Positions 4,358 to 32,068 of a stretch of DNA of 64,000 nucleotides are shown piece by piece. The stretch comes from Hyphomicrobium sp. LHD-15 (lineage in GTDB: Bacteria; Pseudomonadota; Alphaproteobacteria; Rhizobiales; Hyphomicrobiaceae). The stretch is taken from assembly GCF_031157355.1 (NCBI RefSeq), contig NZ_JAVIFT010000003.1, forward strand, positions 186,001 through 250,000, read 5' to 3'. A program made the position numbers and the translations under genes. Within the stretch, counting starts at the first letter, position 1. Each line of letters opens with the position of its first letter. The notes beneath the pieces were generated by a model that saw only the letters and a program-made list of their open reading frames with translations, made no database searches and was not told the DNA's origin.

Positions 4358-5703
4358 CCAACACGTTCCTTACCGTCGACGAGGCAAAAGCGTTCCTCGC
4401 CACCCACCCGTCCGTGCAGTGGATCGATGCATTCGTGCTCGACATGAACGGGCATCCGCGCGGCAAACGTTTGCGCCGCGACGATCTTCCGGGCATCGCC
4501 AAGGGCGGCATGATGATGCCGGGCTCCGTATTCATCATGGACCCGCGCGGCAACTGCATCGCCGAGACCGGCCGCTTGTGGGAGACCGGAGACCCCGACT
4601 ATAACTTCCGCATTCTCGCCGGAACGCTGGGTCCTGTTTCGGTTGACGGCGGCCGTTTCGCGCAGTGCGTCATCGTCCCCGAAAAGGACGATCCGCTCGA
4701 TCCGCGCTTCGTGCTGGCCACCCAGCAGGCGCGCCTCAAGGCGTCCGGCTACACGCCCGTCGCCGCCGTCGAGCTCGAGTTCTACGTGACGAAGCCGGGC
4801 CCCAACGGAGAGTTCACGCTCGACATCCCCCCCGGCGTCTCGCGTGAGACCGACATCCCGCTGACCTTCCAGTTCGACGACATGGACGCGCTGCAAGCGT
4901 TCAACGACGACATCTACCGCATCGCCGAAGCCCAGGGACTTCCCGTCGATGCCCTGACGCAGGAAAGCGGTCCGTCCCAGTTCGAGATCAACCTCAAGCA
5001 TTGCGACGACGCGGTGAAGGCCGCGCTCGACGGTCTGCTTCTGAAGCGCGCCGTGAAGGCCGCCGCCCGCGCTCATGGCCTCGTCGCCACGTTCATGGCC
5101 AAGCCCCACCACGACTGGGCAGGGTCGGGCATGCACATTCACATGAGCATCGTCGACAAGGCAGGCGCCAACGTGTTCGCCGGCAAGCCGATCTCGCCGT
5201 TGTTCCGCAACGTGCTCGGCGGCCTCAAGGACACCATGGCGGATTTCATGGCCGTCTGGGCCCAGTCCGCGAACGCCTATCGGCGCTACGTACCCGAATC
5301 CTACGTCTCGATGGCCGCCCACTGGGGCTTCAACAATCGCACCGTCGCGCTGCGCATTCCCGACCAGGGCGGGCCCGCCACCCGCGTCGAGCACCGCGTT
5401 GCAGGGGCCGACGCCAATCCCTATTTGGTGATTGCGGCGATCCTTGCGGGCGCGGCGCACGGTATCGCCGGCAAGATCGACCCCGGCCCAGAGGTCAACG
5501 GCAACAGCGAGAAGCTCCAAACAACGCCGCTGCCGACGACCTGGACCGAAGCGCTGAAGCAGTTCGAGCAGTCGGCTGTGGTCCGCGAAGCGTTCGGCGC
5601 CGATTTCCAGCACGTGTTCACGCGCCTCAAGGAAACCGAGCGCGCGAACTTCGAACGCATTGTTACCTCGCTCGACCACCTCTGGTACGCTCATGTTGCA
5701 TGA
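4354..5703 (+). CDS. puuA: Glutamine synthetase family protein, probable gamma-glutamylpolyamine synthetase (copy 2)
   Basis: A 449-residue GS-superfamily ligase, second in this cluster. Seen: VQWIDAFVLDMNGHPRGK near the N-terminus, AAVELEFYVTK (about 135-145) as first catalytic strand, HDWAGSGMHIHMSI (about 252-265) in the active site and EHRVAGADANPYLVI near the C-terminus. It begins inside the last codons of puuD (ATGA overlap), which ties it firmly to gamma-glutamyl-amine metabolism. It differs markedly from copy 1 in the middle region (DIPPGVSRETDIP against the proline-rich DYPLEPPMGRS region), so the two probably differ in amine preference, for instance putrescine against spermidine or a monoamine. 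That division of labour is inferred. Confidence 0.8.
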   Translation: MTNTFLTVDEAKAFLATHPSVQWIDAFVLDMNGHPRGKRLRRDDLPGIAKGGMMMPGSVFIMDPRGNCIAETGRLWETGDPDYNFRILAGTLGPVSVDGGRFAQCVIVPEKDDPLDPRFVLATQQARLKASGYTPVAAVELEFYVTKPGPNGEFTLDIPPGVSRETDIPLTFQFDDMDALQAFNDDIYRIAEAQGLPVDALTQESGPSQFEINLKHCDDAVKAALDGLLLKRAVKAAARAHGLVATFMAKPHHDWAGSGMHIHMSIVDKAGANVFAGKPISPLFRNVLGGLKDTMADFMAVWAQSANAYRRYVPESYVSMAAHWGFNNRTVALRIPDQGGPATRVEHRVAGADANPYLVIAAILAGAAHGIAGKIDPGPEVNGNSEKLQTTPLPTTWTEALKQFEQSAVVREAFGADFQHVFTRLKETERANFERIVTSLDHLWYAHVA

Positions 5704-7328: not shown

Positions 7329-8780
7329 ATGAACGTCTCTCCTCCCCGCTATCCGAGCGCAGCCCTCATCGGCGGCGAATGGGTCACGGCGCCGGACACG
7401 TTCCCGGTGCTTGATCCCGCAACCGGCGCCGAAATCGCCCGCGTCCCCAATCTCGGCGCGGCCGAAACCAAGCAGGCAATCGATGCCGCCGAAAAGGCGC
7501 TGCCGGCCTGGTCCGCCAAGACCGCCAAGGAGCGCGCGCAGATCCTGAAGCGCTGGTTCGATCTCGTGACCGCCGAAACCGAGCATCTCGCGCAGCTGAT
7601 GACGGCCGAGCAGGGCAAGCCGTTGGCCGAAGCGCGTGGCGAGGTGGCTTACGGCGCCTCCTTCATCGAGTGGTTCGCTGAGGAAGGAAAACGCGCCTAC
7701 GGCCGCACCATCCCGACCACGATGGCGGGCAAGCGTTACATCACCATCAAGCAGCCGATCGGTGTCGTCGCCGCCATCGCGCCATGGAACTTTCCGATCG
7801 CGATGATCACCCGCAAGGTCGCCCCGGCGCTCGCCGCGGGCTGCACCATTGTCGTCAAACCGGCCGAGGACACGCCGCTCTGCGCGCTTGCCATTGCCAA
7901 GCTCGCGCTCGATGCCGGCGTACCGCCCGGCGTGTTCAACATCGTAACCACCAACAATGCGCCGCCGGTCGGTACCGTGCTGTGCGAAGATCCGCGCGTA
8001 CGCAAGCTCTCGTTCACCGGCTCGACGGAAGTCGGCAAGGCGCTCTACCGCCAGTGCGCGGGCACCGTGAAGAAACTCACGCTCGAGCTCGGCGGTAACG
8101 CACCGCTGCTGGTGTTCGACGATGCCGATCTGAAACAGGCCGTCACCGGCGCCATGGCCTCGAAGTATCGCAATGCCGGCCAAACCTGCGTCTGCGCCAA
8201 CCGCGTCTTCGTCCAGTCCGGCATCTACGATCGTTTCGCCGAAGCGCTCGCCGCCGAGGTCAAGAAGCTCACGGTAGGTCCCGGCCGTGACGCAGGCGTC
8301 GTGATCGGTCCGCTCATCAACGCGGAAGCCGCCAAGAAAGTGGAAGGCCTCGTCCGCGATGCAGTGGGCAAGGGCGCCAAGGTCGTCGTCGGCGGCGCGC
8401 CCGCGCCGGCCGGTCCGCTGTTCTATCAGCCGTCCGTTCTCACCGGCGTCACCCCCGACATGACGATCGTGCACGAGGAGATTTTCGGCCCCGTCGCCGC
8501 CCTCATCCGATTCGAAACAGAAGAGGAAGCCATTCGCCTCGCCAACGACACGCCGTTTGGGTTGGCAGCCTATCTTTTCAGCCAGAACATCGGCCGAGCT
8601 TGGCGGGTTGCAGAAGCCCTTGACGCCGGCATGGTCGGCGTCAACGAAGGCATTTTCTCCAACGAAACCGTACCCTTCGGCGGTGTAAAGGAGAGCGGCC
8701 TCGGACGCGAAGGTGCTGCCGAAGGCCTCGATGAATACCTCGAGACCAAGTTCATCTGCCTCGGAGGCATCGCCGCATAA
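7329..8780 (+). CDS. gabD: Succinate-semialdehyde dehydrogenase (NADP+ type)
   Basis: A 483-residue aldehyde dehydrogenase that would oxidise succinate semialdehyde to succinate for the TCA cycle, closing putrescine and GABA breakdown. Seen: APWNFPIAMITRK (Asn154 region), FTGSTEVGK, the general base in LELGGNAPL (Glu253) and GQTCVCANR with catalytic Cys287 and the neighbouring Cys289; this Cys-x-Cys pair is characteristic of GabD. The length equals that of enterobacterial GabD. The gene starts 9 bp after puuC and so shares its transcript; the partner transaminase gabT is encoded at 10965, beyond the binding protein and the repressor. Confidence 0.88.
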   Translation: MNVSPPRYPSAALIGGEWVTAPDTFPVLDPATGAEIARVPNLGAAETKQAIDAAEKALPAWSAKTAKERAQILKRWFDLVTAETEHLAQLMTAEQGKPLAEARGEVAYGASFIEWFAEEGKRAYGRTIPTTMAGKRYITIKQPIGVVAAIAPWNFPIAMITRKVAPALAAGCTIVVKPAEDTPLCALAIAKLALDAGVPPGVFNIVTTNNAPPVGTVLCEDPRVRKLSFTGSTEVGKALYRQCAGTVKKLTLELGGNAPLLVFDDADLKQAVTGAMASKYRNAGQTCVCANRVFVQSGIYDRFAEALAAEVKKLTVGPGRDAGVVIGPLINAEAAKKVEGLVRDAVGKGAKVVVGGAPAPAGPLFYQPSVLTGVTPDMTIVHEEIFGPVAALIRFETEEEAIRLANDTPFGLAAYLFSQNIGRAWRVAEALDAGMVGVNEGIFSNETVPFGGVKESGLGREGAAEGLDEYLETKFICLGGIAA

Positions 8781-8856
8781 CGAGGCAGCAAAACCCGCCA
8801 GTGACTATACTTTCCGCACACCGTTTTCACGAAGCCCGGTTATTGTCGTGTTGAGT

Positions 8857-8945
8857 GCATCCCGGAAAATCTGACTACTCCAAAACCCGTTCCCGGCGTT
8901 CACCCTAACACCTTAGGGATGGGAAACCGTTTTCCGGCAGGATGC
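8857..8945. repeat. Diverged palindromic repeat upstream of the polyamine-binding protein gene
   Basis: The arms GCATCCCGGAAAA (8857-8869) and TTTTCCGGCAGGATGC (8930-8945) are imperfect inverse copies. Between them is a small perfect hairpin, CCCTAA (8903-8908) and TTAGGG (8913-8918). The CGGAAAA / TTTTCCG core is shared with the element at 5727. It sits in the 242-bp gap after gabD. Confidence 0.5.
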
Positions 8946-8969
8946 GCGACAGGACAAGAACCTGTAGAC

Positions 8970-8993
8970 CGTTCAGGATTCGGCACCTGAACG
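8970..8993 (+). other. Leader hairpin upstream of the polyamine-binding protein gene
   Basis: CGTTCAGG (8970-8977) pairs perfectly with CCTGAACG (8986-8993) over an 8-nt loop, ending 29 bp before the ATG at 9023. No U-run follows, so it does not look like an intrinsic terminator. It may be a transcript-stabilising or regulatory stem in the leader. Confidence 0.4.
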
Positions 8994-9022
8994 ATCCGGC
9001 TTCTGAAAACGGGGAGTCACGA

Positions 9023-10111
9023 ATGGCGAACGCGTTCGCTTCCAAGCTCAACCGGCGAACCAACCGCCGTTCGTTCCTGGCCGGCCTTGGCGCGGCCGCC
9101 GTCGGCCTCACCTTTACCCGAAACGCTCGCGCTTCCGAGGAAAAGAAGCTCAATTTCTACAATTGGGACACCTACATCGGAAACACGACGCTCGACGACT
9201 TCAAGAATGCCACCGGCATCGACGTCAACATGAGCCTCTACGCGACGAACGACGAACTGTTCGCCAAGCTCAGCTCCGGCAACTCCGGCTTCGACGTTGT
9301 TGTGCCCGGGAGCGAGTTCGTGGAGCCGATGATCGCAGCCGGCCTACTCGAGCCGCTGGACCACGCAAGAATTCCGAACATCAAGAATATCGACCCGACG
9401 TTCATCATCGACGCCCCGTATGACCCGGGCCGCGTCTACAGCCTCCCCTACACCTACCTCGTAATCGGCATCGGCTATCGAAAAAGCCGCGTGAAGAGCG
9501 TTCCCGATACGTGGAAAGTTCTGTTCGACTCGGATCAATACAAAAGCCGCATCGCGGTAGTGTCGGATGCCAGCGAGCTCTATCGCCATGTCTTCAAGTA
9601 TCTCGGTGAATCCGCAAACAATCCGACCCCCGAGCTGATCAAAAGGGCCGAAAGAATTCTCGCGATGCAAAGGCCCTACATCAAATCCTTCCACGAGGAC
9701 AACGGCCAGGACCTCCTGCTCTCCGGTGAGGTCGATCTCGTGATGGAGTACAACGGCGACATCGCTCAAATCATGGAAGAGGACGACGACATCGATTTCG
9801 TCGTGCCCAAGGAAGGCGCGCTGAAGCAGTCCGATACGCTTGCGATTCCGAAAGGCGCCCCGCATCCCGAGAACGCCCACGCCTTCATCAACTTCCTGCT
9901 CGACGCCAACGTCGGCAAGGACATCTTCACCACGATCAAGTTCCCCTCGCCCAACGCGGCCGCAACCGCGCTCATGCCCGAGAGCTACAGGAACAATCCC
10001 GTCATTTTCCCGCCGGCCGAAGTCATGGCGAAATGCGAATACCCGCGATACGCGGGGCAGGAAATTTCCCGCCTGTTTGACGAGAGCATGACGCGCCTGC
10101 GCACCGAATGA
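9023..10111 (+). CDS. Polyamine ABC transporter substrate-binding protein, Tat-exported
   Basis: A 362-residue periplasmic binding protein of the PotD/PotF family. The mature part begins with KLNFYNWDTYIGNTTLDDF, the diagnostic opening of spermidine/putrescine-binding proteins, and contains the VVPGSEFVEPMIAAGLLEPLD region. Residues 10-35 form a signal with RRSFLAGLGAAAVGL; the twin arginine followed by S-F-L indicates Tat export rather than Sec. The ATG at 9023 has GGGGAG at 9011-9016; the open frame reaches back to 8942 but that part covers the repeat element. No permease or ATPase gene of the transporter is in the window, so it must work with components encoded elsewhere. It ends 17 bp from the convergent repressor gene. 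Confidence 0.88.
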   Translation: MANAFASKLNRRTNRRSFLAGLGAAAVGLTFTRNARASEEKKLNFYNWDTYIGNTTLDDFKNATGIDVNMSLYATNDELFAKLSSGNSGFDVVVPGSEFVEPMIAAGLLEPLDHARIPNIKNIDPTFIIDAPYDPGRVYSLPYTYLVIGIGYRKSRVKSVPDTWKVLFDSDQYKSRIAVVSDASELYRHVFKYLGESANNPTPELIKRAERILAMQRPYIKSFHEDNGQDLLLSGEVDLVMEYNGDIAQIMEEDDDIDFVVPKEGALKQSDTLAIPKGAPHPENAHAFINFLLDANVGKDIFTTIKFPSPNAAATALMPESYRNNPVIFPPAEVMAKCEYPRYAGQEISRLFDESMTRLRTE

Positions 10112-10128
10112 TCCTGCCCGCCGCGGGG

Positions 10129-10719
10129 TCACATGAACGGCGGCGTACAGGCACTGATAATCACCGAGGCCGTCTTGCCGACGTTGCGGAACCGATGCGG
10201 GATGGTACTTTCGAAGTAGTACGCATCTCCAGGCCCCAGCACGCGCCGCTGGTCGCCGACCGTCAGCTCGATGTGGCCCGAAAGCACGAGCCCCCCCTCT
10301 TCGCCCTTGTGGGTCAGCATCGTGGCACCGGTATCGCCGCCCGGCTCGTAAACTTCGTGCAGGATCTGCAATGCCTTTTCCGGCCGCTCGCCGGCCACCA
10401 CCATGAAGCGCACTTTCCCCTCGGTGAGCGCCACAAGCTCCTCCTTGAGGTAGAACACGCGCGGCGCCTCTGGTAGCGCAATCGAGAAGAACTCCGCGAA
10501 CGAAAGCCCCAGCGCGTCGGTCAGGCGGTTCAGCGTCGCCACCGACGGACTGTGCTTGTTCTGCTCGATCATGCTGATCATGCCGTTCGTGACGCCGGCT
10601 TTCCCCGCAAGATCCCGCTGCGTGAACCCGCCCTTGATGCGAAGCGCTTTGAGGCGTGCTCCGACATCGACAGAGCTGCGCCCGTGCCCTGCGTCCCTGG
10701 AACGTTTGCGTCGTGCCAT
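10129..10719 (-). CDS. puuR: PuuR-type transcriptional repressor (XRE helix-turn-helix plus cupin)
   Basis: A 196-residue regulator. Residues about 20-75 are an XRE/Cro-type helix-turn-helix (GARLKALRIKGGFTQRDLA then SMIEQNKHSPSVATL), and residues about 110-190 are a small cupin (GGDTGATMLTHKGEEGG, then GPGDAYYFESTIPHRFRN) that would sense the ligand. This HTH-cupin pairing is that of PuuR, the repressor of putrescine use, which is released by putrescine. It converges on the binding protein gene and diverges from gabT. A palindrome 73 bp upstream of its start (10792-10811) is a good candidate for its own operator. Other HTH-cupin regulators look similar, but the context favours PuuR. Confidence 0.85.
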   Translation of the reverse strand: MARRKRSRDAGHGRSSVDVGARLKALRIKGGFTQRDLAGKAGVTNGMISMIEQNKHSPSVATLNRLTDALGLSFAEFFSIALPEAPRVFYLKEELVALTEGKVRFMVVAGERPEKALQILHEVYEPGGDTGATMLTHKGEEGGLVLSGHIELTVGDQRRVLGPGDAYYFESTIPHRFRNVGKTASVIISACTPPFM

Positions 10720-10791
10720 GCCGATCCGGCTCCACCTGTCGCGTTCGAAGCGAAAACCCTAGCACAAGGCGCCACTTTGAAACGACTACAT

Positions 10792-10811: not shown

Positions 10812-10964
10812 ACGAACACACAACTGCGACTTTAGGCGTGAAACACAGTGCTTGAACGGCCATAAGCTGTAGAGTAATTTGCGTCTGCAGCTCAAAATAA
10901 TGAGCAAACCTGATGCGGCCGAGCGCTTCGCGCGCCGCCTCACAAGCTACGAAGGGTGAGACCG

Positions 10965-12260
10965 ATGGCGACCTCAGCCGAACTTCACGCACGCCGCACC
11001 GCAGCCGTCCCTCGCGGCATCGGCCACGCCACCGCCATCTACGCCAAGCGCGCCGAAAACGCCGAGATCTGGAGCGAGGACGGCAAGCGCTACATCGACT
11101 TCGGAGCCGGCATCGCCGTCGTCAATACCGGCCATCAACACCCGCGTATTCTTGCGGCCGTCGCCGAGCAGATGAAGTCGTTCAGTCACGTCTGCTTCCA
11201 GGTTACGCCGCACGAGAACTACGTCTCGCTTGCCGAGCGCCTGAATGCCATCGCACCCGTCTCTGGGCCTGCGAAAACGATGCTGGCGTCCACCGGCGCC
11301 GAAGCCGTTGAGAATGCCGTCAAGGTCGCGCGCGCTTTCACGGGCCGCCCCGGCATCATCTCGTTCTCGGGCGGTTTCCACGGCCGCACCCATATGGGCA
11401 TGGCCCTGACCGGCAAAGCCGTTCCCTACAAGAAGGGCTTCGGTCCGTTCCCGGCCGACATCTACAATGTCGCCTTCCCGAACCTCTATCACGGCACCTC
11501 GGTGGCCGAGAGCATCAAGGCGCTGAAGTCTCTCTTCAAGCACCAGGCCGACCCGTCGAGCATCGCCGGCATCATCATCGAGCCGGTGCAGGGCGAGGGC
11601 GGATTCAACATCGCGCCGCCTGATTTCCTCGCAGCCCTCCGCGCCATCTGCGACGAGCATGGCATCGTTCTCATTGCCGACGAAATCCAAACCGGCTTCG
11701 CGCGCACCGGCAAGATGTTCGCGCTCGATCACACCAGCGTAAAGGCCGATGTCGTGACGCTCGCGAAAGGCCTTGCTGGCGGCTTGCCGCTTTCGGCCAT
11801 CACCGGCCGGGCCGACATCATGGACGCGTCCAACCCCGGCGGCCTCGGCGGCACCTACGCCGGCAACCCCGTAGCCTGCGCCGCGGCCCACACCGTGCTC
11901 GACATCATCAAGGACGAAAAGCTCTGCGAGCGCGCGACCGCAATCGGCGAGATCATCCTCGGCCGCTGTCGCGAGCTGGCCGCCCGCTCGAACCTCAACT
12001 GCATCGGCGACGTGCGCGGTGTCGGCGCCATGTGCGCGGTCGAGTTCGTGAAAGACACCAACAGCGGCGAACCGGCCCCCGAGCTTACCTCACAAGTGCT
12101 GAAGTCCGGCAACGAGCGCGGCCTGATCCTGCTCTCGTGCGGCACCTACGGCAATGTCATCCGCTTCCTGCCGCCACTGACCGCGAGCGATACACTGGTC
12201 AAGGAAGGCATGGATGTCTTCGAGGCGAGCCTGACCGAGGCCGTCAGCAAGCTTCAGTGA
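10965..12260 (+). CDS. gabT: 4-aminobutyrate aminotransferase
   Basis: A 431-residue class III PLP transaminase that transfers the amino group of GABA to 2-oxoglutarate, giving succinate semialdehyde for GabD. Seen: STGAEAVENAVKVAR near the PLP phosphate site, ISFSGGFHGRT, IIEPVQGEGGF with the substrate-gating Glu, LIADEIQTGFARTG with Asp239, and VTLAKGLAGGLPLSA with the Schiff-base Lys268. The IQTGFARTG and AGNPVACAAA motifs are those of GabT rather than pyruvate-dependent transaminases. A GTG three codons upstream (10956) is possible, but the ATG at 10965 has AAGGG at the right spacing. The gene diverges from puuR over a palindromic operator. Confidence 0.88.
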   Translation: MATSAELHARRTAAVPRGIGHATAIYAKRAENAEIWSEDGKRYIDFGAGIAVVNTGHQHPRILAAVAEQMKSFSHVCFQVTPHENYVSLAERLNAIAPVSGPAKTMLASTGAEAVENAVKVARAFTGRPGIISFSGGFHGRTHMGMALTGKAVPYKKGFGPFPADIYNVAFPNLYHGTSVAESIKALKSLFKHQADPSSIAGIIIEPVQGEGGFNIAPPDFLAALRAICDEHGIVLIADEIQTGFARTGKMFALDHTSVKADVVTLAKGLAGGLPLSAITGRADIMDASNPGGLGGTYAGNPVACAAAHTVLDIIKDEKLCERATAIGEIILGRCRELAARSNLNCIGDVRGVGAMCAVEFVKDTNSGEPAPELTSQVLKSGNERGLILLSCGTYGNVIRFLPPLTASDTLVKEGMDVFEASLTEAVSKLQ

Positions 12261-12340
12261 CGGCGCCGCCAGCGTAACCACGCGATCGGCCCCACAACGC
12301 ATCCGGCGCTCACGTTTCACCCGACGGGAACATCACACCC

Positions 12341-13663
12341 ATGACCGTTCAGCTCAAGACCAACGACCTCGAAGCCTTCTTCATGCCGTTCACCGCAAAC
12401 CGGCAGTTCAAGAAGGCGCCGCGCCTGCTCGCCTCCGCGAAGGACACCAACTATTTCACCGAAGACGGCCGCAAGGTTCTCGACGGCACATCTGGCCTCT
12501 GGTGCGTAAACGCCGGCCACTGCCGTCCCCGCATCGTAGAGGCCATCCAGAAGCAGGCCGCCGAATTGGATTTCGCCGGCACCTTCCAGATGGGCCACCC
12601 CAAGGCGTTCGAAGCCGCCTCCCGCCTCGTCAACATTGCGCCCAAGGGCTTCGACCACGTCTTCTTCACCAACTCGGGCTCCGAGTCGGTCGAGACCGCA
12701 TTGAAGATCGCCCTCGCTTATCACCGCGCCAAGGGCAACGCCTCGAAGGTGCGCCTCATCGGCCGCGAGCGCGGCTATCATGGCGTGAACTTCGGCGGCA
12801 CGTCGGTCGGCGGCATCTCACCCAACCGCAAGATGTTCGGCTCGCTTCTCGCGGGCGTCGATCATCTCCGCCACACCCACGATCTCGCCAAGAACGCCTT
12901 CTCGAAAGGCGAGCCCGAGCATGGCGCGGAGCTGGCCGACGATCTCGAGCGCCTCGTCGCGCTGCATGACGCCTCCACCATCGCCGCCGTCATCGTCGAG
13001 CCCGTCGCCTGCTCAACCGGCGTTCTGATCCCGCCCAAGGGTTACCTGAAGCGCCTCGAAGCCATCTGCCGCAAGCACGACATACTGCTTATTTTCGACG
13101 AGGTCATTACCGGCTTCGGCCGCCTCGGCACGCCGTTCGGCGCCGACTATTTCGATGTCTCGCCCGACATGATCACCGGCGCCAAGGGCGTCACCAACGG
13201 CACCATTCCGATGGGCGTCGTGTTCCTCAAGAGCCACCTCTACGAGGCCTTCGCCACCGGCCCGGAGAACATCATCGATCTCTTCCACGGCTACACCTAC
13301 TCGGGCCACCCGATGGCCTCCGCCGCCGCGCTCGGCACCCTCGACACCTACCACGAGGAAGGCCTGCTGACGCGCGCAGCAAAGCTCGCCGCTTACTGGG
13401 AAGAGCGCCTGCACGCCTTGAAAGGGCTGCCGCACATCATCGACATCCGCAACATCGGCCTGATCGGCGCCATCGAGTTCGCGCCCATTGCCGACGCGCC
13501 CGCAAAGCGCGCCTACGATCGCTTCGTCAAATGCTTCGAGCGCGGCGTGCTTGTCCGCCAGACCGGCGACATCATCGCGCTCTCGCCGCCGCTCATCATC
13601 AAGGAGAGCGAGATCGATCATCTGTTCGACGTCGTCACCGAAGTCCTCAAGGAAGCCGACTGA
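12341..13663 (+). CDS. Omega-amino acid (beta-alanine):pyruvate aminotransferase
   Basis: A 440-residue class III transaminase of the beta-alanine:pyruvate type (BauA/OapT-like). It would turn beta-alanine into malonate semialdehyde with pyruvate as acceptor. Seen: [17 protein letters not shown] at the N-terminus, the [13 protein letters not shown] segment, [31 protein letters not shown] with Asp253, and [14 protein letters not shown] with the Schiff-base Lys282. These N-terminal and central motifs are characteristic of this subgroup. It ends 8 bp before mmsA, whose product handles malonate semialdehyde, and this supports the assignment. It may also act on other omega-amines such as 4-aminobutanoate. 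Confidence 0.83.
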
Positions 13664-19116: not shown

Positions 19117-21657
19117 CTATCGCGGATCTTCCTCCGTGTTGAGCATGCCGGTGAAGCCCGTGATGGCGAGCGAGGTCAGCACCAGACCCAGGATCATTTC
19201 CAGCACCGAGAGCATGTAAAGCAGAACGCCCGCCGTTATCGTGAGACGCGGTCCTCCGTTGCCGTCCCCTGTGGCGAGCCACTCCGGCGCCGGGATTTCC
19301 ACCAGCGGCTTATAGCCAAGCCGCGGCCGCCAATGCCCCTCGAAGCCGAAATCGACGAACGGCACAAATAGATCAAACGAATAGGCAAGCGGTGCAAACG
19401 GCGGATAGTTGGCCTCGGACTTCGCGTCGTTCTGGCCGAAGTTGCCCTTGAGCGCCATGACGAACACCTGCTCGTCCTTGCAGTCGCGCTGGCTGCACCC
19501 CTGTGCCGCAAACGACCAGATCGCGCCGAACGTCAGTACGAACACAGCCATCCAGATCACCGTGCGCCACGGGTTGAATCCGTAAAGCGCGAACACGTCG
19601 AGACACCAATTCTGGAGCCGCTGAAGCCGCCCGACCGAAACACTGCGGCGTTGGCGGCGGCGGCGCGCGATGGCGATCTCGCGCGCCTCGTCCTGATAGC
19701 CTTGCGCCGCGAGCCGCCGCGAAAGTTGCATCCACGCCTGCGGCTTGAAATGGCGATCGAGGTCGGTTGCGCTTTGCCCTTCGAGCCAGCGCGAACGCAT
19801 CAGCGCGGCGTTGCGCTCGCCCTTGGCCTTCGGATCGTCGTCGCCCGGTTGCCCGGCGGGATGCTCCAAATGCTCGTAACGGAAGCCGTCGAGCACGAGA
19901 TGATCGATGTCGCGGCCGTCAGAAGTGCGCCCTCGCTTCTCGGAGCCTTTGCCACGCGCCGGCGGCGGCCACGCCTGGGCCGCATCCTCGTAGCTGCCCA
20001 CGTGTGCCCGCGAGAGATCGATGATGCCACGCGGCCGGTCAGCGGCCGCATGCGGCATGACGAGCCGGTCGGCGCGCGCATCGACAAGGCTGATTGCAAG
20101 CTCGTCGTAGCGCTGATCGAGCACCGGATCGTAGTTGCTGGCGTGGGGCGCATCGCCCCGTGCAAGCTTGGCCGAGACAATCTGGCTGCCGCTGAAATCG
20201 ATCGTTCCGTCCACTTGCGCGTGATCGAGCGCGATCGCGCCCGTCGCCTGGAAACCGCCGTCGAGCACGAGTTCGCGTGCGATGCGCACGCCGTTGGCGA
20301 ACAAAGCCGGCCCGCTTGTAACGAAAATCTTCGTATCGCGCAGCCGCAGCTCGTTACCGACGCGCGCCGCAGGCAGCCGCACGAGACCGCGGATCTGCGC
20401 CCGTCCCATGAACCACCCGCCCTGGATCTGCGCGCCGTCAGCGCGGATCGCGAGATCGCCGCCCCCTTCGATCTGGCTCGCCGTGAATCCGATCTGCCCT
20501 TCGATCTGCGCGCCCGCGAAGCGAATGCTGCCCTTGATCTTGCCGTTCCGCATGATCCAGTTGCCGCCGAGATGCAGCACATCCGCCTCGATGGCCCGTC
20601 CGGGACCATCAATGGTCACGTCGTTGGCGTGAATGCCCTGGCTGATGCGCGCGCCTGCTAGCGACACACCGCCCGTAAGCGTCGCGCCGGCGAGGTTGAC
20701 GCCCTGATCGACGATCAGCCCCGCGCCCGCCAGCGCCCAGTCGGTGCCCGAGCCGGAGATCTCCGCGCCGCGAACGGAAAGCTCTCCGCCGATCCGCGTG
20801 CGCCCGAGCAGAACGCCGCCGACGATCCGCGCCCCGTCGAGAATGACGTCGCTGCCGATGTCCGCGCCCCGCGCGTTCAATGCTTCGCCTGGCGCCGTGA
20901 TCGCGATGTTCTGCGCATCGATGGCCTTGATCGCGAGGCCGCGCACGCGCACCGCGCCTCTGATCTTGGCCCGGCGCAAAATCCAGGCGCCCTCGCCCAT
21001 CGCCCCATCGCCGTTGATTGCGACCGTAGGCGAGCCGAGCTCCGCCTCCTCCCAAAGCAGGCCGCCACCGATCCGCGCGCCGGCGAACCGCGTTTCGCCC
21101 GAAACTTTTGCCGCCCGCAGAATCCACGGGCCTCCAAGCTTGAGTCCATCCGCCAGGATCGCCGTATCCGAGCCGTTGCTGATCGTCGAAGCATCCATCG
21201 CCAGCGCTTCACCGATCGAGGCGCCGCGCAACCGCACGAGCCCGGTGACGGTCGAGGTCGTGAGAAAGAACGCGCTTTCGATGAAGCACCGGTCCGCCTT
21301 GATCGCGCCGTTGACGGTGCATTCGTAGAGCGCGATGCGCTTCAGACGCGCGTCGCGCAGGCTCAGCGCCGAACGCTCTCCCGCAGCCGGCGTGAAGCGG
21401 CAGCGTAGGAACACGATCGGCTTGTCGACGGTGGAGCCTTCGAGATCGAGCGATCCTTCGATCGTCGCATCGTGGATGGTAAGGCCCGCGAACGGCACCA
21501 CCCAGTCGGACCGGCTTTCGGTTGCGAGCGCGCGCAGCACGGACGCACGAACGGTCTGTCCGCCCATCTCGGCGCGCCGCCCCTTCAGGATCGCTTGCAC
21601 GAGCTGTTGCTCGGCCTGCGAAAGATCCATCTCGGCCACCGGTGCCAGATCCTGCAT
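19117..21657 (-). CDS. Large beta-helix repeat membrane protein of unknown function
   Basis: An 846-residue protein not assignable to a characterised family. After a short N-terminal helix, residues about 65-520 consist of tandem units of roughly 20 residues with a recurring G-x-(V/I)-x-(L/F)-x-GA-x-I-x-G pattern (for example VRFAGAQIEGQIGF-like turns), which predicts a long right-handed beta-helix related to pentapeptide-repeat or bactofilin-like solenoids. A charged linker (DGRDIDHLVLDGF, then RRRRQRRS near 680) leads to a membrane helix at about 698-719 and another at about 811-838, separated by a loop with PLAYSFDLFVPFVDF. The C-terminal helix pair recalls ion-channel-2 proteins, but no selectivity filter is seen. 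The start at 21657 follows a GGGGGG site. It stands alone between xoxF and ald. Confidence 0.75.
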   Translation of the reverse strand: MQDLAPVAEMDLSQAEQQLVQAILKGRRAEMGGQTVRASVLRALATESRSDWVVPFAGLTIHDATIEGSLDLEGSTVDKPIVFLRCRFTPAAGERSALSLRDARLKRIALYECTVNGAIKADRCFIESAFFLTTSTVTGLVRLRGASIGEALAMDASTISNGSDTAILADGLKLGGPWILRAAKVSGETRFAGARIGGGLLWEEAELGSPTVAINGDGAMGEGAWILRRAKIRGAVRVRGLAIKAIDAQNIAITAPGEALNARGADIGSDVILDGARIVGGVLLGRTRIGGELSVRGAEISGSGTDWALAGAGLIVDQGVNLAGATLTGGVSLAGARISQGIHANDVTIDGPGRAIEADVLHLGGNWIMRNGKIKGSIRFAGAQIEGQIGFTASQIEGGGDLAIRADGAQIQGGWFMGRAQIRGLVRLPAARVGNELRLRDTKIFVTSGPALFANGVRIARELVLDGGFQATGAIALDHAQVDGTIDFSGSQIVSAKLARGDAPHASNYDPVLDQRYDELAISLVDARADRLVMPHAAADRPRGIIDLSRAHVGSYEDAAQAWPPPARGKGSEKRGRTSDGRDIDHLVLDGFRYEHLEHPAGQPGDDDPKAKGERNAALMRSRWLEGQSATDLDRHFKPQAWMQLSRRLAAQGYQDEAREIAIARRRRQRRSVSVGRLQRLQNWCLDVFALYGFNPWRTVIWMAVFVLTFGAIWSFAAQGCSQRDCKDEQVFVMALKGNFGQNDAKSEANYPPFAPLAYSFDLFVPFVDFGFEGHWRPRLGYKPLVEIPAPEWLATGDGNGGPRLTITAGVLLYMLSVLEMILGLVLTSLAITGFTGMLNTEEDPR

Positions 21658-21741
21658 CGTTCCCCCCATTCCAGCGCGGCGCGATACTGGTTGGCAATTG
21701 TGAGAGCCGCAAGGCACATCTCAAATGCCGGAGCACCAAAG

Positions 21742-25324: not shown

Positions 25325-26212
25325 CTACGCCTCTGCCCGTTCGGTGACGTCGACCGCCACTGAAACCGAATGGCGACCGGAATCGAAGATCACGCCATCG
25401 ATCGGCGAGACGTCGGAATAGTCCCGTCCGAAAGCGAGCGGAACATGATCCCCGCCGCCGGCGCGGATCGCGTTGGTCGGATCGAGATCCTGCCACCCCG
25501 CGCGCTCGCCGCACCAGACAGACACCCACGCATGCATTGCGTCCGCGCCTTCGAGCCGCGGCATGCCCGGCAACGGATGCGTCCGCAGATAGCCGCTGAC
25601 ATAAGCAGCCGCGAGACCGAGCGATCTGAGACAGCCGATCATAATATGGGCGAAGTCCTGGCACACGCCGCGCCGGAACGCGAACGCGTCGCGTGCCGGC
25701 GTCATCACGTCGGTCGCGGCCGGATCGTAGCGAAAATCTGTGTGGATCTGCGTCATGAGATCGATCGCCGCCGCGAGGATCGGCCGACCCGGGGCAAACA
25801 GCGGCGCGGCGTAGTCGAGAAACGCTGCATCGATCGGAACGTGCTTCGAAGCGAAAATCTGATGCGCCGGCGATCGCGGCGCGAGGCTCGGCGTTGCATG
25901 CGCGGCACCGCGCACCGCTTCCCACGGCGGCGTCGTCAAGGGATCGATCAGCGGTCCGACGGCGAGTTGCACGACCGACCGGCTTTCCACCACGAGACGG
26001 TTATGCGGCGCCTTGAGCGTGACGTGGGTCGTAGCGTTGCCGAAGAAATCCCGTGTTACCGCGTACTCGCTGGGCTTGGGATCGATGATCATGTCGCATT
26101 CGAGAACGTCGAGACCGGCATTCGAAAGCGGCATCAGCCTCAAAACGTGCGCGGCGAACGGCACGAACGAGCCATAGGCATACGAAGTCGTCTGGCGAAT
26201 GTCATAGATCAC
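25325..26212 (-). CDS. Transglutaminase-like cysteine protease/ligase with bacterial N-terminal domain
   Basis: A 295-residue cytoplasmic protein with no signal peptide. Residues 1-85 match the bacterial transglutaminase N-terminal domain (YDIRQTTSYAYGSFVPFAAH, then DFFGNATTHVTL), and residues about 140-250 are the papain-like transglutaminase core: Cys184 in RRGVCQDFAHI, His227 in DAMHAWVSVW and Asp244 in QDLDPTN. All three triad residues are present, so it should be catalytically active, as either a peptidase or an acyl-transferase. The start is a GTG that overlaps the stop of the ATP-grasp/alpha-E gene by 4 bp (GTGA), so the two proteins are made together. Its substrate is unknown. Confidence 0.85.
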   Translation of the reverse strand: MIYDIRQTTSYAYGSFVPFAAHVLRLMPLSNAGLDVLECDMIIDPKPSEYAVTRDFFGNATTHVTLKAPHNRLVVESRSVVQLAVGPLIDPLTTPPWEAVRGAAHATPSLAPRSPAHQIFASKHVPIDAAFLDYAAPLFAPGRPILAAAIDLMTQIHTDFRYDPAATDVMTPARDAFAFRRGVCQDFAHIMIGCLRSLGLAAAYVSGYLRTHPLPGMPRLEGADAMHAWVSVWCGERAGWQDLDPTNAIRAGGGDHVPLAFGRDYSDVSPIDGVIFDSGRHSVSVAVDVTERAEA

Positions 26213-28680
26213 GACGCCTCGCCCTCCGTCGCGAAGGGATCGCGCACGCGGAAATACGACATCGAGATTTCGTCCGAGAGCTGCATGAGGCCGTTCTCGA
26301 TGCCGAGAATATCGTCGTGCCGGATTTTCACCGGATCGAGAACGGACACGATCGCGTGCAACCGGTCGGCCACCGCGAGTGCCGGCGACGGCCGGTTGGT
26401 GGGCGGCAACAGCGGCAGCGCCAGCACGTGCCCCTTGAGGCGCGAAAGCTGGAACAGGAGCGAGCGCGGGTTGCTCTCGTCGAGCAGCACGAGATCCATG
26501 ACCGGCGCGAACGCGGCGCCAAGCGGATAGCGTGAACGATAAGTGATATGGCAATCGTTGAGTTCGAGCAGCAAATCGAGTTCGTCGCGCGACCCACCTT
26601 GCGCCCGCGCGAACTGGCGCGCGAAGCGGCAGGTCGCGAGTGCCCGCTCGATCCGGAGCCCGAGCTTCACGAACCGCCAGCCTGCCTGCCGGTTCATAGT
26701 CTCGAGCTGAAAGCCTGTAACCGCCGCGATCAGGCGGATCGCGGTACTCGCTTTTTCGAGAACCGCGACCTCGGCGATCTCGCGCGTCTCGGGCGAAAGC
26801 AGGAAGGCGTTGAGATCTTCAAGCGCGCGCCATGCATCGGCCGGAAAGCGGTCCCGCGTCACCGACGCCGCCCGCCGCGCCGCCGCAACCAACGCCGGCA
26901 CTGCGCCGTCGAATTGAGAACGAGCCAGCGCCGTCAAACCGATCAGCGCGGGATTGGCGTGCGGGTCGGTCGGCGCCGCCCCCCAGCGCACTAGAAGTTC
27001 CGCGATCCCCCCGACACCAGGCAATCCCTCGCTGCGCTCGGCCGAAACCCGCACGGCAAGCGCACGAACCAGCCGCAGCGTTTCTTCCGCGCGTTCGATG
27101 TAGCGGGCAAGCCAGAACAGATTGTCAGCGGCCCGGCTCGGCAGCACGCCCGCCGCGCGCCGCACGACGATCTGCGTTTCCGAAGGGATCAGCGTCGTCT
27201 GCTGCACCGGGCCGTCCGAAAGCACCCACACGTCCGCCGATCGCGCGCCGCGCTGCATCGAGACGGCGCCGAGATCGTGAGGCCCAACCAAAGCAAACCC
27301 GCCCGGCATCACCTTGTAGCCGTCTGCCGTCGCCGCCACGAACACGCGGAAGGTGAACGGCTGCGGTTCGAGCCGGCCATCGACCCACACCGGCATCGTC
27401 GAGAGCTTCAGCATCTCCTGCCCGACGAAGTCGACGCCGCGGCGCTCGATGGCAGCCCGCAGCGTCTCACGCTGCGACCCGTCGAGATCCGGCATCACCC
27501 ACGGCCCGCCCTGCGGAATACCGCCGGCGACGCGTGAATAGGCGGGCGCAATGACACGTTGACCGAGGGATTCGAGCACGGCCTCGCGCGCGGCAGGCTG
27601 GCCGCACCACCACGTCGCGACGTTCGGCAGCGTCAACCGCTCGTTGATCAGCGGCTCGGCGAGCGTCGGCAGAAACCCGAGCAGCGCGCGCGCTTCCGCA
27701 AGTCCCGATCCGAGGCCATTGGCGAGCGTGACATTGCCGCGAAGCGCGGCCTGCACGAGACCCGGAATGCCGAGCCGCGAACGCCCGTTGAGCTCCAGCG
27801 GATCGGCAAAGTCGCCATCTATGCGCCGCAGCAGAACCCTCACCTTGCGCAATCCGCCGACTGTCCTCAGGTACACGGATCCGCCGAGCACCAGAAGATC
27901 GATGCCTTCCACGAGCCGCAAGCCGAGATAACGCGCAAGATAGGCGTGCTCGAAATACGTTTCGTTGAGCGGGCCTGGGGTCAGCAGGCACACGCCCGCG
28001 TCATCCGTTTCCCGGTGGCTTGCGAGCTCTACCCTGAGCGCGTCGAAGAACGGCGCCAACCGCTCGACATCGAACCCGCGAAACACGTCCGCCATCGCCC
28101 GCGACAGCGCGATCCGGTTTTCGAGCGCGAAGCCCGCCCCCGAAGGCGCCTGCGTGCGATCGCGCAGAACCCACCATTGCCCGTTCGGGCTGCGGCCGAT
28201 GTCGACCGCATAGAGATGCAGCTGGCGCGGCGACGGCTGGTCGGTCTGCACCAGCGGCCGGAGAAAGTCGGGGCTGCCCGCAATCAGCGACGCCGGAAGC
28301 CCCAGCGCCGAAAGCTGCCGCCCGCCGCTGTAGACGTCTTTCAACACCGCTTCGATGAGCTTGGCGCGCTGGATCACGCCCGCTTCGATTGCCGCCCAAT
28401 CCTGCGGCGAAATCAGAAGCGGTACATGGCTCAGCGGCCATTGCCGCTCTCCGGCCGTCGGATCGTCGTAGACGCGATAGTAAACGCCGGAATCCTTGAG
28501 ATAGCGGTCGGCGGCGTTGAAACGCTGAGCAAGAGACGCTTGCCCTTCCGCGGCAAGCCGGTCGACGAACGCGGTCCAATGCGGACGCACCCGCCCCGCC
28601 GCATCGACCATCTCGTCATAGACGCCGGGCAGTGGCCGATAGCCGGCGATCAACGCCTCGCTCGCCCCAGCTTCCGACAT
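26209..28680 (-). CDS. Circularly permuted ATP-grasp ligase fused to alpha-E domain
   Basis: An 823-residue fusion. Residues 1 to about 490 are a circularly permuted ATP-grasp (DUF404/DUF407 type): YDEMVDAAGRVRPHW, the DRYLKDSGVYYRVY block, LLTPGPLNETYFEHAYLAR, the R-K-V-x-V-L-x-R-R segment near 278-286 and FVGQEMLKLSTMP. ATP-grasp enzymes activate a carboxylate as acyl-phosphate and join it to an amine. Residues about 510-823 are the helical alpha-E domain, with its hallmark NLFWLARYIERAEETLRL. In many genomes these are two adjacent genes; here they are one chain. A GTG at 28701 is an alternative start, but the ATG at 28680 has a GAGG at good spacing. It lies 88 bp after the DUF2126 gene and overlaps the next by 4 bp. 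Confidence 0.88.
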   Translation of the reverse strand: MSEAGASEALIAGYRPLPGVYDEMVDAAGRVRPHWTAFVDRLAAEGQASLAQRFNAADRYLKDSGVYYRVYDDPTAGERQWPLSHVPLLISPQDWAAIEAGVIQRAKLIEAVLKDVYSGGRQLSALGLPASLIAGSPDFLRPLVQTDQPSPRQLHLYAVDIGRSPNGQWWVLRDRTQAPSGAGFALENRIALSRAMADVFRGFDVERLAPFFDALRVELASHRETDDAGVCLLTPGPLNETYFEHAYLARYLGLRLVEGIDLLVLGGSVYLRTVGGLRKVRVLLRRIDGDFADPLELNGRSRLGIPGLVQAALRGNVTLANGLGSGLAEARALLGFLPTLAEPLINERLTLPNVATWWCGQPAAREAVLESLGQRVIAPAYSRVAGGIPQGGPWVMPDLDGSQRETLRAAIERRGVDFVGQEMLKLSTMPVWVDGRLEPQPFTFRVFVAATADGYKVMPGGFALVGPHDLGAVSMQRGARSADVWVLSDGPVQQTTLIPSETQIVVRRAAGVLPSRAADNLFWLARYIERAEETLRLVRALAVRVSAERSEGLPGVGGIAELLVRWGAAPTDPHANPALIGLTALARSQFDGAVPALVAAARRAASVTRDRFPADAWRALEDLNAFLLSPETREIAEVAVLEKASTAIRLIAAVTGFQLETMNRQAGWRFVKLGLRIERALATCRFARQFARAQGGSRDELDLLLELNDCHITYRSRYPLGAAFAPVMDLVLLDESNPRSLLFQLSRLKGHVLALPLLPPTNRPSPALAVADRLHAIVSVLDPVKIRHDDILGIENGLMQLSDEISMSYFRVRDPFATEGEAS

Positions 28681-28768
28681 CTTCGCAGCCTCAAACGTCA
28701 CGGCACATCACACGGAGCCCCAGCCTCGGAAGGCCGAAGCAGGCACGACGGCATCGCAAATCCGTGCG

Positions 28769-31700
28769 TCATGCTGGCGGCCGCCTGAGATCGAGCGTGC
28801 AAGGATACTCGTCGTTGCGTTCGAGCGGCGGAACCGTCATCAGGCCCGGCGTGTGGCCATGGTCCTGGAATCGCGCCAGCCGGCGCGCCTCGGCCTCGTA
28901 GGTGTTGACCGGGAACGTGTCGTAGCTGCGCCCGCCCGGATGCGCGACGCTGTAAACGCATCCACCGAGCGAGCGATGGCTCCACGTATCGAGTACGTCG
29001 AACGTCAGCGGCGCATGCACCGGTATCGTCGGATGCAGCCCCGAGGCGGGATACCATGCCTTGTAGCGAATACCTGCCACGAACTCTCCCGAACGCCCGG
29101 TGGAGGCAAGCGGCACGCGCCGCCCGTTGCAAGCGAGAATATGCCGGCGCGGATTGAAGCCGTCAGCTTTCACCTGAAGCCGTTCCACAGAGGAATCCAC
29201 GTAGCGCACCGTGCCCCCCGCCGAGCCTTCCTCGCCCATCACATGCCACGGTTCGAGCGCCTGGCGCACTTCGAGCTTCACGCCACCGTGCTCCACGGCC
29301 CCGTAGTAGGGAAAGCGGAACTCCCGCTGCGCTTCGAACCATTCTGTCTTGAAAGCGTAGCCTGCCCGCCTGAGCACGTCGAGCACATCGAGAAAATCGG
29401 CCCACACATAATGCTCGAGCATGAAGCGGTCGTGCAGCGCCGTGCCCCAGCGCACGAGGTCTCCGCGCTCGGGCGCCTTCCAGAATTTAGCGATCAGCGC
29501 GCGCAGAAGAAGCTGCTGCGCAAGGCTCATGCGCGCATCCGGCGGCATCTCGAACGAGCGGAACTCGACGAGCCCGAGCCGTCCCGAAGTGCTGTCCGGC
29601 GAATAGAGTTTGTCGATACAGATCTCGCTGCGATGCGTATTGCCGGAGGAATCGACCATCAGGTTGCGTAGCAGCCGGTCCAGCAGCCACGGCGCGGCCG
29701 GCGGCCCCTCGCCCGGACCGGGAATCATGCCCAGCGCGATCTCGAGCTCGTAGAGGCTTTCGTGGCGCCCCTCGTCGACACGCGGCGCCTGGCTCGTCGG
29801 CCCGATAAACAGTCCCGAGAACAGATACGACAACGACGGATGCCGCTGCCAGAACACGACCAGGCTCTTCATCAGGTCGGGACGGCGCAGGAACGGGCTC
29901 TGCCAGGGCGTCGCCCCGCCGACCACCACATGGTTGCCGCCGCCGGTTCCGGTATGGCGCCCGTCGGTCATGAACTTGTCGGTGCCGAGCCGCGAGAGCC
30001 GTGCCTCGTGGTAGACGGTCTCCGTCGTGTTCACGCACTCGCGCCACGTCGCGGCCGGATGGATGTTGACCTCGATGACACCCGGATCCGGCGTGACCTT
30101 TATGACGTTCAGGCGATAGTCGGCCGGCGGCGGATAGCCCTCGATATGCACCGGCACGCCAAGCTCCTCGGCCGTGGCCTCGACCACCGTCAACAGCTCG
30201 AGGTAGTCGTCGAGCGCAGCGAGCGGCGGCATGAACACGCAGAGCTTGCCCTCGCGGAGCTCGACCGCGAGCGCGGTCCGTACCGAGGCGCCTTCGATAT
30301 CCTGCGACAGCGGGAACGGCTGCCGGTACGGATTGTCACCGACCCGGCGATAGACCTGCATGACCTCGTCCGGATCGGGAAGCTCGCCGCGCTCCATGAA
30401 CGGATCGTCCTCGACGACCTGCGGAACCGCGAGTGGCGGCAGCCACGGCAAACCGTTGAGCGGCAGCCTCAGTCCGAGCGGACTGTCGCCCGGCGTCAGG
30501 TAGAGCTGTCCGCGCCTAAGCTTCCACTTCTCGCTCATCCAGCCGATTCCGGCGCGCGAGTTCCAGCGCTGGATCGGCAGCACGAAGCCCGACGCAGTTC
30601 CGAGGCCGCGATCGAAGACGCGTGCGATGCGGGCCCGCTCCTCCTTGTCGTCGAGCTTGCTATCGAGCGGATCGACGTTGACCGGAAGCTGGGCTTCTCT
30701 CACGATCCAATGGGCCGGATCCTCGTAGGCCGGAATAATGTATTCGCGCCCGACGCCGAGGCGCTCGGCAATGCCGTCCGAGAAAGCCTTGGCACCCGCA
30801 ACGTCGGTCGGCGCGCGATAGCCTTCCCGGGCAACCAGCGCATCGTTGCGCCAGATCGGCTTCCCGTCCTTGCGCCAGTAAAGCGAGAACGTCCACCGCG
30901 GCAGGCTTTCGCCCGGATACCACTTGCCTTGCCCGTAGTGCAGAAATCCGCCCGGCCCGAACTTCGCTCTGAGCCGGCGAATGAGATCGTCGGAACGCGC
31001 GCGTTTTGTCGGTCCGACCGCCGAGGTGTTCCATTCCGCGGTTTCGTAGTCGTCGATCGAGACGAACGTGGGTTCGCCGCCCATGGTGAGACCGACGCCC
31101 TCGGCTTCGAGATCGACATCGACCCTGTCGCCGAGCGCGACGAGTTGCTCCCAGCTCTCCTCGGAGAACGGCAATGTCACGCGCGGCTTCTCGGCGACGC
31201 GCGTGACCTTCATATCGAACGAGAACGTGACCTCCGACGGGTCGACGCTGCCGCTGATCGGCGAAGCACTGCGATAATGCGGCGTGGCGGCAAGCGGAAT
31301 ATGCCCCTCACCGCAAAACAGGCCCGAGGTCGGATCCAGTCCGATCCAGCCCGCTCCCGGCAGATAGACCTCCGTCCAGGCGTGAAGATCCGTGAAGTCG
31401 ACCTCCGTTCCCGCAGGACCGTCGAGCGACTTGATGTCGGGCTTGAGCTGAATGAGGTAGCCGGAAACGAAGCGCGCCGCGAGGCCGAGGTGGCGCAGCA
31501 CGTGGACCAGCAGCCAAGCGGAATCGCGGCACGATCCCGACTTGAGCGCGAGCGATTCTTCCGGCGTCTGCACGCCGGGCTCCATGCGGATGAGATAGCT
31601 GACTTCGCGATTGATCAGCGAATTGAGTTCGACCAGATAGTCGATGGTGCGCTCAGCCTTGCGCGGGATCTTGGCCAGCAGCGCCTTCAGCATCGGCCCG

Positions 31701-32068
31701 GCCTTCTCCGTTACGAGATAAGGCGCAAGGTCGGCTTCGAGCGCATCGGCGTAGGCAAATGGAAAACTTTCCGCATACCCCTCGACGAAGAAATCGAACG
31801 GATTGACGATCGCCATTTCGGCCAGAAGATCGACCGTGACGCTGTATTCCGTCGTCTTTTCGGGAAACACGTATCGCGCGAGCCAATTGCCGTGCGGATC
31901 CTGCTGCCAATTGATGAAGTGGTTTTCCGGCGAGACCTTCAGCGAATAGCTCGGGATTCGCACCCGGCAGTGCGCGGCCGGCCTGAGCCTTATGATCTGC
32001 GGCCCGAGTGCGACGGGGCGGTCGTAAACGTAGCGGGTAACGTGATGCAGGCTGGTTAGGATGGCCAT
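28769..32068 (-). CDS. Transglutaminase / DUF2126 putative amidoligase fusion protein
   Basis: A 1099-residue protein and first gene of the operon. Residues 1 to about 290 are a bacterial transglutaminase with intact triad (Cys180 in [10 protein letters not shown], His229 in [11 protein letters not shown], Asp245 in LDPTSGLF). Residues about 310-1099 are DUF2126, starting at [14 protein letters not shown] and including [33 protein letters not shown] and [17 protein letters not shown]; the last two look like a glutamine-synthetase-like catalytic region with acidic and His residues, in line with the family's prediction as a COOH-NH2 ligase. The start at 32068 is the point where family similarity begins; the open frame to 32230 runs through a palindromic repeat. 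No signal peptide, so it acts in the cytoplasm. Confidence 0.88.

Follow-up and report, generated by a model that had tools for sequence, protein, structure and literature searches.

The question raised by the DNA analysed here, a window of 64,000 nucleotides from Hyphomicrobium sp. LHD-15 (contig NZ_JAVIFT010000003.1, positions 186,001 to 250,000; G000:C3:186001-250000 in this analysis, where loci are labelled L, genomes G and contigs C), is what its three-gene operon at 25325-32068 on the minus strand makes, and which of the three proteins would be the ligase. The operon encodes a transglutaminase-like domain fused to DUF2126 (TG-DUF2126), a circularly permuted ATP-grasp domain fused to an alpha-E domain, and a stand-alone transglutaminase-like protein (TG2). 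It is a genuine and ordinary representative of a system of ATP-grasp, alpha-E, transglutaminase and amidoligase proteins that is already known, though unsolved, and was reportedly predicted by Iyer et al. in 2009. Our tentative answer, to which we give somewhat less than even chances, is that the operon represents the DUF2126 branch of this system and most likely runs a cytoplasmic make-and-break amide cycle when nitrogen is short. A conserved pseudo-ligase, with E-D-N changed to x-D-R, and its alpha-E domain may bind substrate and partners for a new, glutamine-synthetase-like ligase, DUF2126, joined by an intact ATP-grasp set and a zinc metallopeptidase; this fuller scheme is likewise put forward as possible rather than probable.

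The middle gene (26209..28701, minus strand) encodes 830 residues with Pfam matches to CP_ATPgrasp_2 (E 1e-129; residues 94-472, 27286..28422) and Alpha-E (E 2.3e-58; residues 520-817, 26251..27144), the latter with its ER motif present as RYIERAE. The structure model, with a mean predicted local distance difference test (pLDDT) of 88.6, has an ATP-grasp fold: Foldseek places 3n6x first (E 4.8e-30), followed by glutathione synthetases, Gss (2io7), YjfC, YgiC and the ligase Cp1B. We aligned 112 fused proteins with 24 nominally separate ATP-grasps, one of which (L015) is a fused gene cut by a contig end. The separate proteins read D..R..E-D-N in 23/23 cases, including this genome's own Anbu-type copy, and 22 of the 23 also carry the lysine and GG, L148 being cut before them. 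The metal-site residues E and N occur together in 0/112 fused proteins (E alone in one, N in none); position 182 is arginine in 94% of them, and the lysine column (385) holds glycine or alanine in 77/112. The window protein has R180-D181-R182 (28156..28164) at the place of E-D-N and Ala385 (27547..27549) at the place of the lysine before the glycine-rich loop, and so has neither the E-x-N nor the lysine/glycine-rich loop expected of an active ligase. The separate copy is intact in four further genomes (L226-L229), and the fused copies of L229 and L230 likewise have no E/N pair.

The E-x-N residues serve as Mg2+ ligands, and they and the lysine/glycine-rich loop have the roles familiar from Gss and glutathione synthetase. 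Escherichia coli Gss has D, E, N, K and K at positions 318, 330, 332, 498 and 533, which we take to be its Mg- and ATP-binding residues. Because hhalign lines up the motif with Gss, YgiC and YjfC at a probability of 0.2%, the residue roles rest on the shared fold, the conserved motif and general knowledge of these enzymes. The substituted motif is itself conserved among the fused proteins, mostly as DRTQAPSGAG, and the change therefore looks like one of role, not decay. As the pair is absent from 112/112 fused proteins and present in 23/23 separate ones, the fused ATP-grasp is probably a pseudo-ligase and not the active ligase for which a preliminary description of this DNA had taken it. The loss is not reported in the parts of the literature that our searches reached; Iyer et al. 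(2009) may mention it.

Judged by its residues, an intact ATP-grasp is supplied by a second, Anbu-type operon in the same genome, with ATP-grasp, alpha-E, transglutaminase and Anbu genes on contig C2 (about 665842-669984, corresponding to 7840-11985 of L115, G000:C2:658000-677000). The Anbu gene thus lies on C2 and the window operon, on C3, contains none. An alternative is that ATP-grasp and DUF2126 are both active ligases whose product, a peptide or protein tag with amide links, is trimmed or crosslinked by the transglutaminases. The folds of both domains speak for it, as do the authors citing Iyer et al. who write of peptide synthesis or tagging, and the Anbu-operon ATP-grasp of Y. bercovieri releases inorganic phosphate from ATP (PMC6376114; here and below, statements with such accessions refer to the portions of the papers that were available). 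However, the Y. bercovieri protein is of the Anbu-operon kind, which keeps the catalytic residues in its aligned relatives, whereas the fused kind is without the metal-site pair in 112/112, and we regard two active ligases as unlikely.

On its structure model, DUF2126 appears the likelier ligase. TG-DUF2126 (28769..32068, minus strand; 1099 residues, 86% identical to its best named relative, which comes from an uncultured Hyphomicrobium) served to find the 121 loci compared and occurs in every one of them: besides the window, these are 80 named loci (L005-L084), taken as the top 80 of at least 594 relatives, and 40 loci (L116-L155) picked from genomes of the phylum. Its DUF2126 domain covers residues 277-1095 (28784..31240; Pfam 1319 bits). 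For the model of the whole protein (mean pLDDT 81.0), the five Foldseek matches with E <=0.001 are all transglutaminase-like (3isr, 6g49 and 6g4h among the entries), and the glutamine synthetases 4hpp, 9n4x and 8fbp follow as weak matches with probabilities of 0.82-0.89; further glutamine synthetase rows go down to 0.33, the output giving no aligned residues. Diphtheria-toxin rows (probability <=0.08) were ignored as chance. The invariant His713 (codon 29930-29932) falls in the motif that makes up the short DUF2126 stretch aligning with GCS2; it is among some 70 charged or polar residues that do not vary in the DUF2126 part of the 65 aligned sequences (out of 121; 54-85% identical to the window protein). 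The proposal that DUF2126 is an amidoligase thus gains a weak fold signal and no support from sequence profiles. A literature search on DUF2126 returned no papers, and no report of its product was found; in the parts of the literature covered, the statement that no product is established holds.

Both transglutaminase-like proteins keep their catalytic residues. In TG-DUF2126 the domain spans residues 7-246 (31331..32050; Bact_transglu_N and Transglut_core in Pfam, Foldseek 3isr E 1e-13), and Cys180 (codon 31529-31531), His229 and Asp245 are invariant in 65/65 aligned sequences. TG2 (25325..26212, minus strand; 295 residues, the same two Pfam domains) begins with a GTG start within GTGA at 26209-26212, a 4-bp stop/start overlap with the fused gene upstream, and its Cys184, His227 and Asp244 are kept in 111/111 transglutaminases at least 36% identical to it; eight less similar ones were set apart, one with Asn in place of His. 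No signal peptide was recognised by eye on the N-termini alone. Open reading frames and Pfam agree with the genes, domains, fusions and coordinates first described, and the overlap and the intact triads stand as well; a loss of catalytic residues in close relatives, named beforehand as a possible refutation, was found for the ATP-grasp and not for the transglutaminases.

The genes for DUF2126, CP_ATPgrasp, Alpha-E and Bact_transglu_N are neighbours on one strand, and their order, most commonly TG-DUF2126, then the fused gene, then TG2, recurs so widely that it is not chance, which bears out the assignment to the predicted peptide-ligation system. L008 deviates in order or strand, as do several loci of other classes (L126-L128, L130, L133, L135, L136). 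The fused gene occurs in 112/121 loci, so that the fusion, at first taken as a special feature here, is the rule for the DUF2126 branch. It was not found in L015 (the cut gene), L026, L076, L078, L124, L131, L134, L151 and L155. L131 and L134 have a separate ATP-grasp and alpha-E in its place, and in L155 (G267, 7709-10736) a transglutaminase and a divergent DUF2126 (32% identity) are two overlapping genes, and no fused ATP-grasp was found in the region of 20 kb; this may be an ancestral or a degenerate arrangement. Among 398 sampled genomes of the phylum, counted without regard to phylogeny, DUF2126 is found in 120, alpha-E in 212, Anbu in 146 (by search with this genome's Anbu protein) and Peptidase_Mx in 72. 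A control search for DUF2126 also gave a match in Synechococcus elongatus. Alpha-E is present in 120/120 DUF2126 genomes, with at least two matches in 111 of them (counted by eye in the table), and in 142/146 Anbu genomes. On plasmids, 25 of the 256 records that match do so over 80% or more of the protein. No universal extra neighbour emerged, no neighbour cluster exceeding 31 loci (crude gene caller, 122 loci), and the largest clusters, confined to the 80 closest loci, look like shared synteny and were set aside. Five loci (L129, L142, L144, L145 and L151) have a ComEC-like gene close to the module, and all of these but L151 have a RidA-family gene there too.

The PF15887 metallopeptidase family tracks the system. 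The protein is a zinc-ribbon metallopeptidase (PF15887 with PF10005; HExxH in all four checked), encoded near the module in at least 15/121 loci; some cases, for example G050 and G162, escaped the neighbour clustering. In 13 loci it lies directly divergent from TG-DUF2126, in L143 after TG2 and in L124 three genes off; it adjoins the module in the family relative L116, and a Caballeronia plasmid carries in one cluster a separate ATP-grasp, alpha-E, the metallopeptidase, TG-DUF2126, a fused ATP-grasp and a transglutaminase. Alpha-E is present in 70/72 PF15887 genomes (Fisher p=1.4e-19), a few of which have weak or broken matches only (G200, G217, G287), and among alpha-E genomes PF15887 occurs in 58/120 with DUF2126 versus 12/92 without (p=3.3e-8). 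Twenty peptidase regions, partly picked because coordinates suggested linkage, comprised seven by a DUF2126 module and three by an Anbu operon (L157-L159). This link is not reported in the accessible parts of the literature searched; Iyer et al. (2009) may mention it.

There are two further explanations. A purely degradative system would consist of transglutaminase-like cysteine peptidases, the metallopeptidase and non-catalytic scaffolds, ATP-grasp and DUF2126 both being without ligase activity. Intact triads, the lost metal-site pair and the peptidase association would all fit, but this would leave aside the roughly 70 invariant charged or polar DUF2126 residues including His713 (a weak point, the sequences being 54-85% identical to the window's), the weak glutamine synthetase resemblance and the second alpha-E set in 111/120 DUF2126 genomes; we consider it improbable. 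Alternatively, DUF2126, with the Anbu-type ATP-grasp, might conjugate a peptide to proteins, and under nitrogen starvation the transglutaminases, metallopeptidase and Anbu would detach it or degrade it. Such tagging and turnover is already a published hypothesis, going by the available parts of those papers, and draws on the links to the zinc metallopeptidase and to Anbu, a proteasome homologue. It is nevertheless rather unlikely in our judgement: no Anbu was detected in 44/120 DUF2126 genomes, the proteins that resemble the ATP-grasp in structure work on small peptides, and, within the part of PMC6376114 available, YbAnbu bound none of its operon partners specifically and cleaved no proteasome substrate.

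Nitrogen control of the wider system has good support. In an ntrC mutant of Burkholderia cenocepacia under nitrogen limitation, the log2 changes of I35_5080-83, labelled in order DUF404/407, DUF403, transglutaminase and 'large protein containing transglutaminase-like domain', were -8.2, -9.4, -9.4 and -6.0, and the cluster is on the authors' list of targets shared by NtrC and sigma54 (PMC5491218). In Pseudomonas putida, PP_2685 and PP_2688 are up by log2 4.4 and 4.0 on nitrate versus ammonium (PMC8050072), and limiting nitrogen raises PP_2686-2688 11- to 15-fold (PMC7801951). Counts in marine metagenomes link the transglutaminase and DUF403/404/407 domains with urea metabolism (PMC3597751). 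We also scanned for sigma54-like sites, defined by a simple consensus as at least 10 of 12 positions matching, a threshold chosen after the distribution was seen. They precede 9/22 genes filed as separate ATP-grasps (one, L015, being the misfiled cut fused gene) versus 21/956 other genes (p=2.5e-9), and 10/121 DUF2126 genes versus the same 21/956 (p=0.0013); the DUF2126 excess sits in loci from other classes (6/30 versus 2/132), and the ten same-class loci have none (0/10). The genome's own Anbu-type operon has such a site, TGGCCCGTCTCTTGCC, very close to the called start. The sigma54 step is contested, and for the window copy we infer a nitrogen role from the wider system.

In the amide cycle that we prefer, DUF2126 would act on a small peptide or amine, creating an amide or isopeptide bond that the transglutaminase-like thiol enzymes would cleave or transfer, and the zinc metallopeptidase and/or Anbu peptidase, coded elsewhere, would complete the breakdown; the role of the fused ATP-grasp/alpha-E protein would be to bind substrate and partners, without canonical ATP-grasp catalysis. 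The DUF2126 reaction, these roles and a small-molecule substrate are what we infer from the architecture, conservation, residue loss and co-occurrence. We tilt, by analogy, towards a small-molecule amide rather than a protein tag because of the fold relatives (glutathione synthetase, Gss and the peptide-spermidine ligases, as E. coli YgiC and YjfC, structural matches of the fused ATP-grasp, are annotated) and the nitrogen link.

Several observations weigh against the amide cycle. Lysine is kept at column 385 in 13/112 fused proteins. The glutamine synthetase rows 4hpp, 9n4x and 8fbp have E 0.06-0.12 and a target template modelling (TM) score of about 0.3, and hhalign of DUF2126 against glutamine synthetase and GCS2 profiles gave probabilities below 2% in original or permuted order. 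For the peptidase, the 70/72 count ignores phylogeny, no other part of the system was seen within 10/20 peptidase regions, this genome's own (L156) included, and sigma54 control was rejected, no site scoring at least 10 standing before 34 peptidase genes. The window operon has no good sigma54 -24/-12 site (best 8/12 in 350 bp upstream; weak sites could escape the scan), and for the window taken together with the 80 loci closest to it, the excess before DUF2126 is small (4/81 versus 18/736). I35_5083 is probably TG-DUF2126, going by its label in the available part of PMC5491218. In P. putida an rpoN mutant showed undiminished induction of PP_2686-2688 (14-, 16- and 20-fold), and PP_2685 barely rose in the wild type (1.12; PMC7801951). 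The inactivity of Anbu on proteasome substrates counts here as well.

Elsewhere in the window, two glutamine-synthetase-family genes (PF00120) lie at 905-1897 and 4696-5688 on the plus strand, with a helix-turn-helix protein (10129-10719) and two apparent aminotransferases (10956-13663) downstream, labelled by eye; together they resemble a gamma-glutamyl-polyamine (puu-type) cluster. Inspection by eye of an 866-residue protein at 19117-21717 (minus strand) shows long repeats and, at the C-terminus, a hydrophobic segment; the protein has no NCBIfam match. Rfam and tRNA scans gave no matches.

With DUF2126 present in 120 of the 398 genomes sampled from the phylum, and no account of what it makes found in our searches, the system is worth resolving, and the earlier chemistry needs revision, DUF2126 being the better ligase candidate and the fused ATP-grasp probably not a canonical ligase. 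A likely ligase, a probably inert subunit, a partner peptidase and a possible starvation signal make a vague 'peptide tag' prediction directly testable. To the known system we add the residue loss in the fused ATP-grasp, the PF15887 link and the sigma54-like site at the Anbu-type operon; the second intact Anbu set, the metallopeptidase, the nitrogen link and the residue loss had all escaped the preliminary description.

Among known systems, the glutamine synthetase family (4hpp, 9n4x, 8fbp) shares with the TG-DUF2126 model the weak Foldseek likeness given above, at E 0.06-0.12, with other rows weaker and sequence profiles giving no support. Gss, YgiC and YjfC of E. coli have the ATP-grasp fold in common with the fused protein, and Gss pairs a ligase with an amidase, but Gss has D318, E330, N332, K498 and K533 against R180, R182 and A385 in the window. 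The B. cenocepacia cluster I35_5080-5083 (PMC5491218) shares DUF404/407, DUF403, a transglutaminase and probably TG-DUF2126; its ATP-grasp and alpha-E are separate genes, and it is listed as a sigma54 target, whereas the window copy shows no sigma54 site. The Anbu operon (P. putida PP_2685-2688 and this genome's C2 copy) has ATP-grasp, alpha-E and transglutaminase of the same families, but as separate genes, with intact ATP-grasp residues, Anbu present, no DUF2126 and, in the genome's own copy, a sigma54-like site. The system of Iyer et al. (2009), whose prediction is cited in PMC5666114, PMC6376114 and PMC3597751, reportedly joins the same families in one operon; the window module differs in having DUF2126, a fused ATP-grasp/alpha-E protein without the canonical metal-site pair, and no Anbu in the operon.

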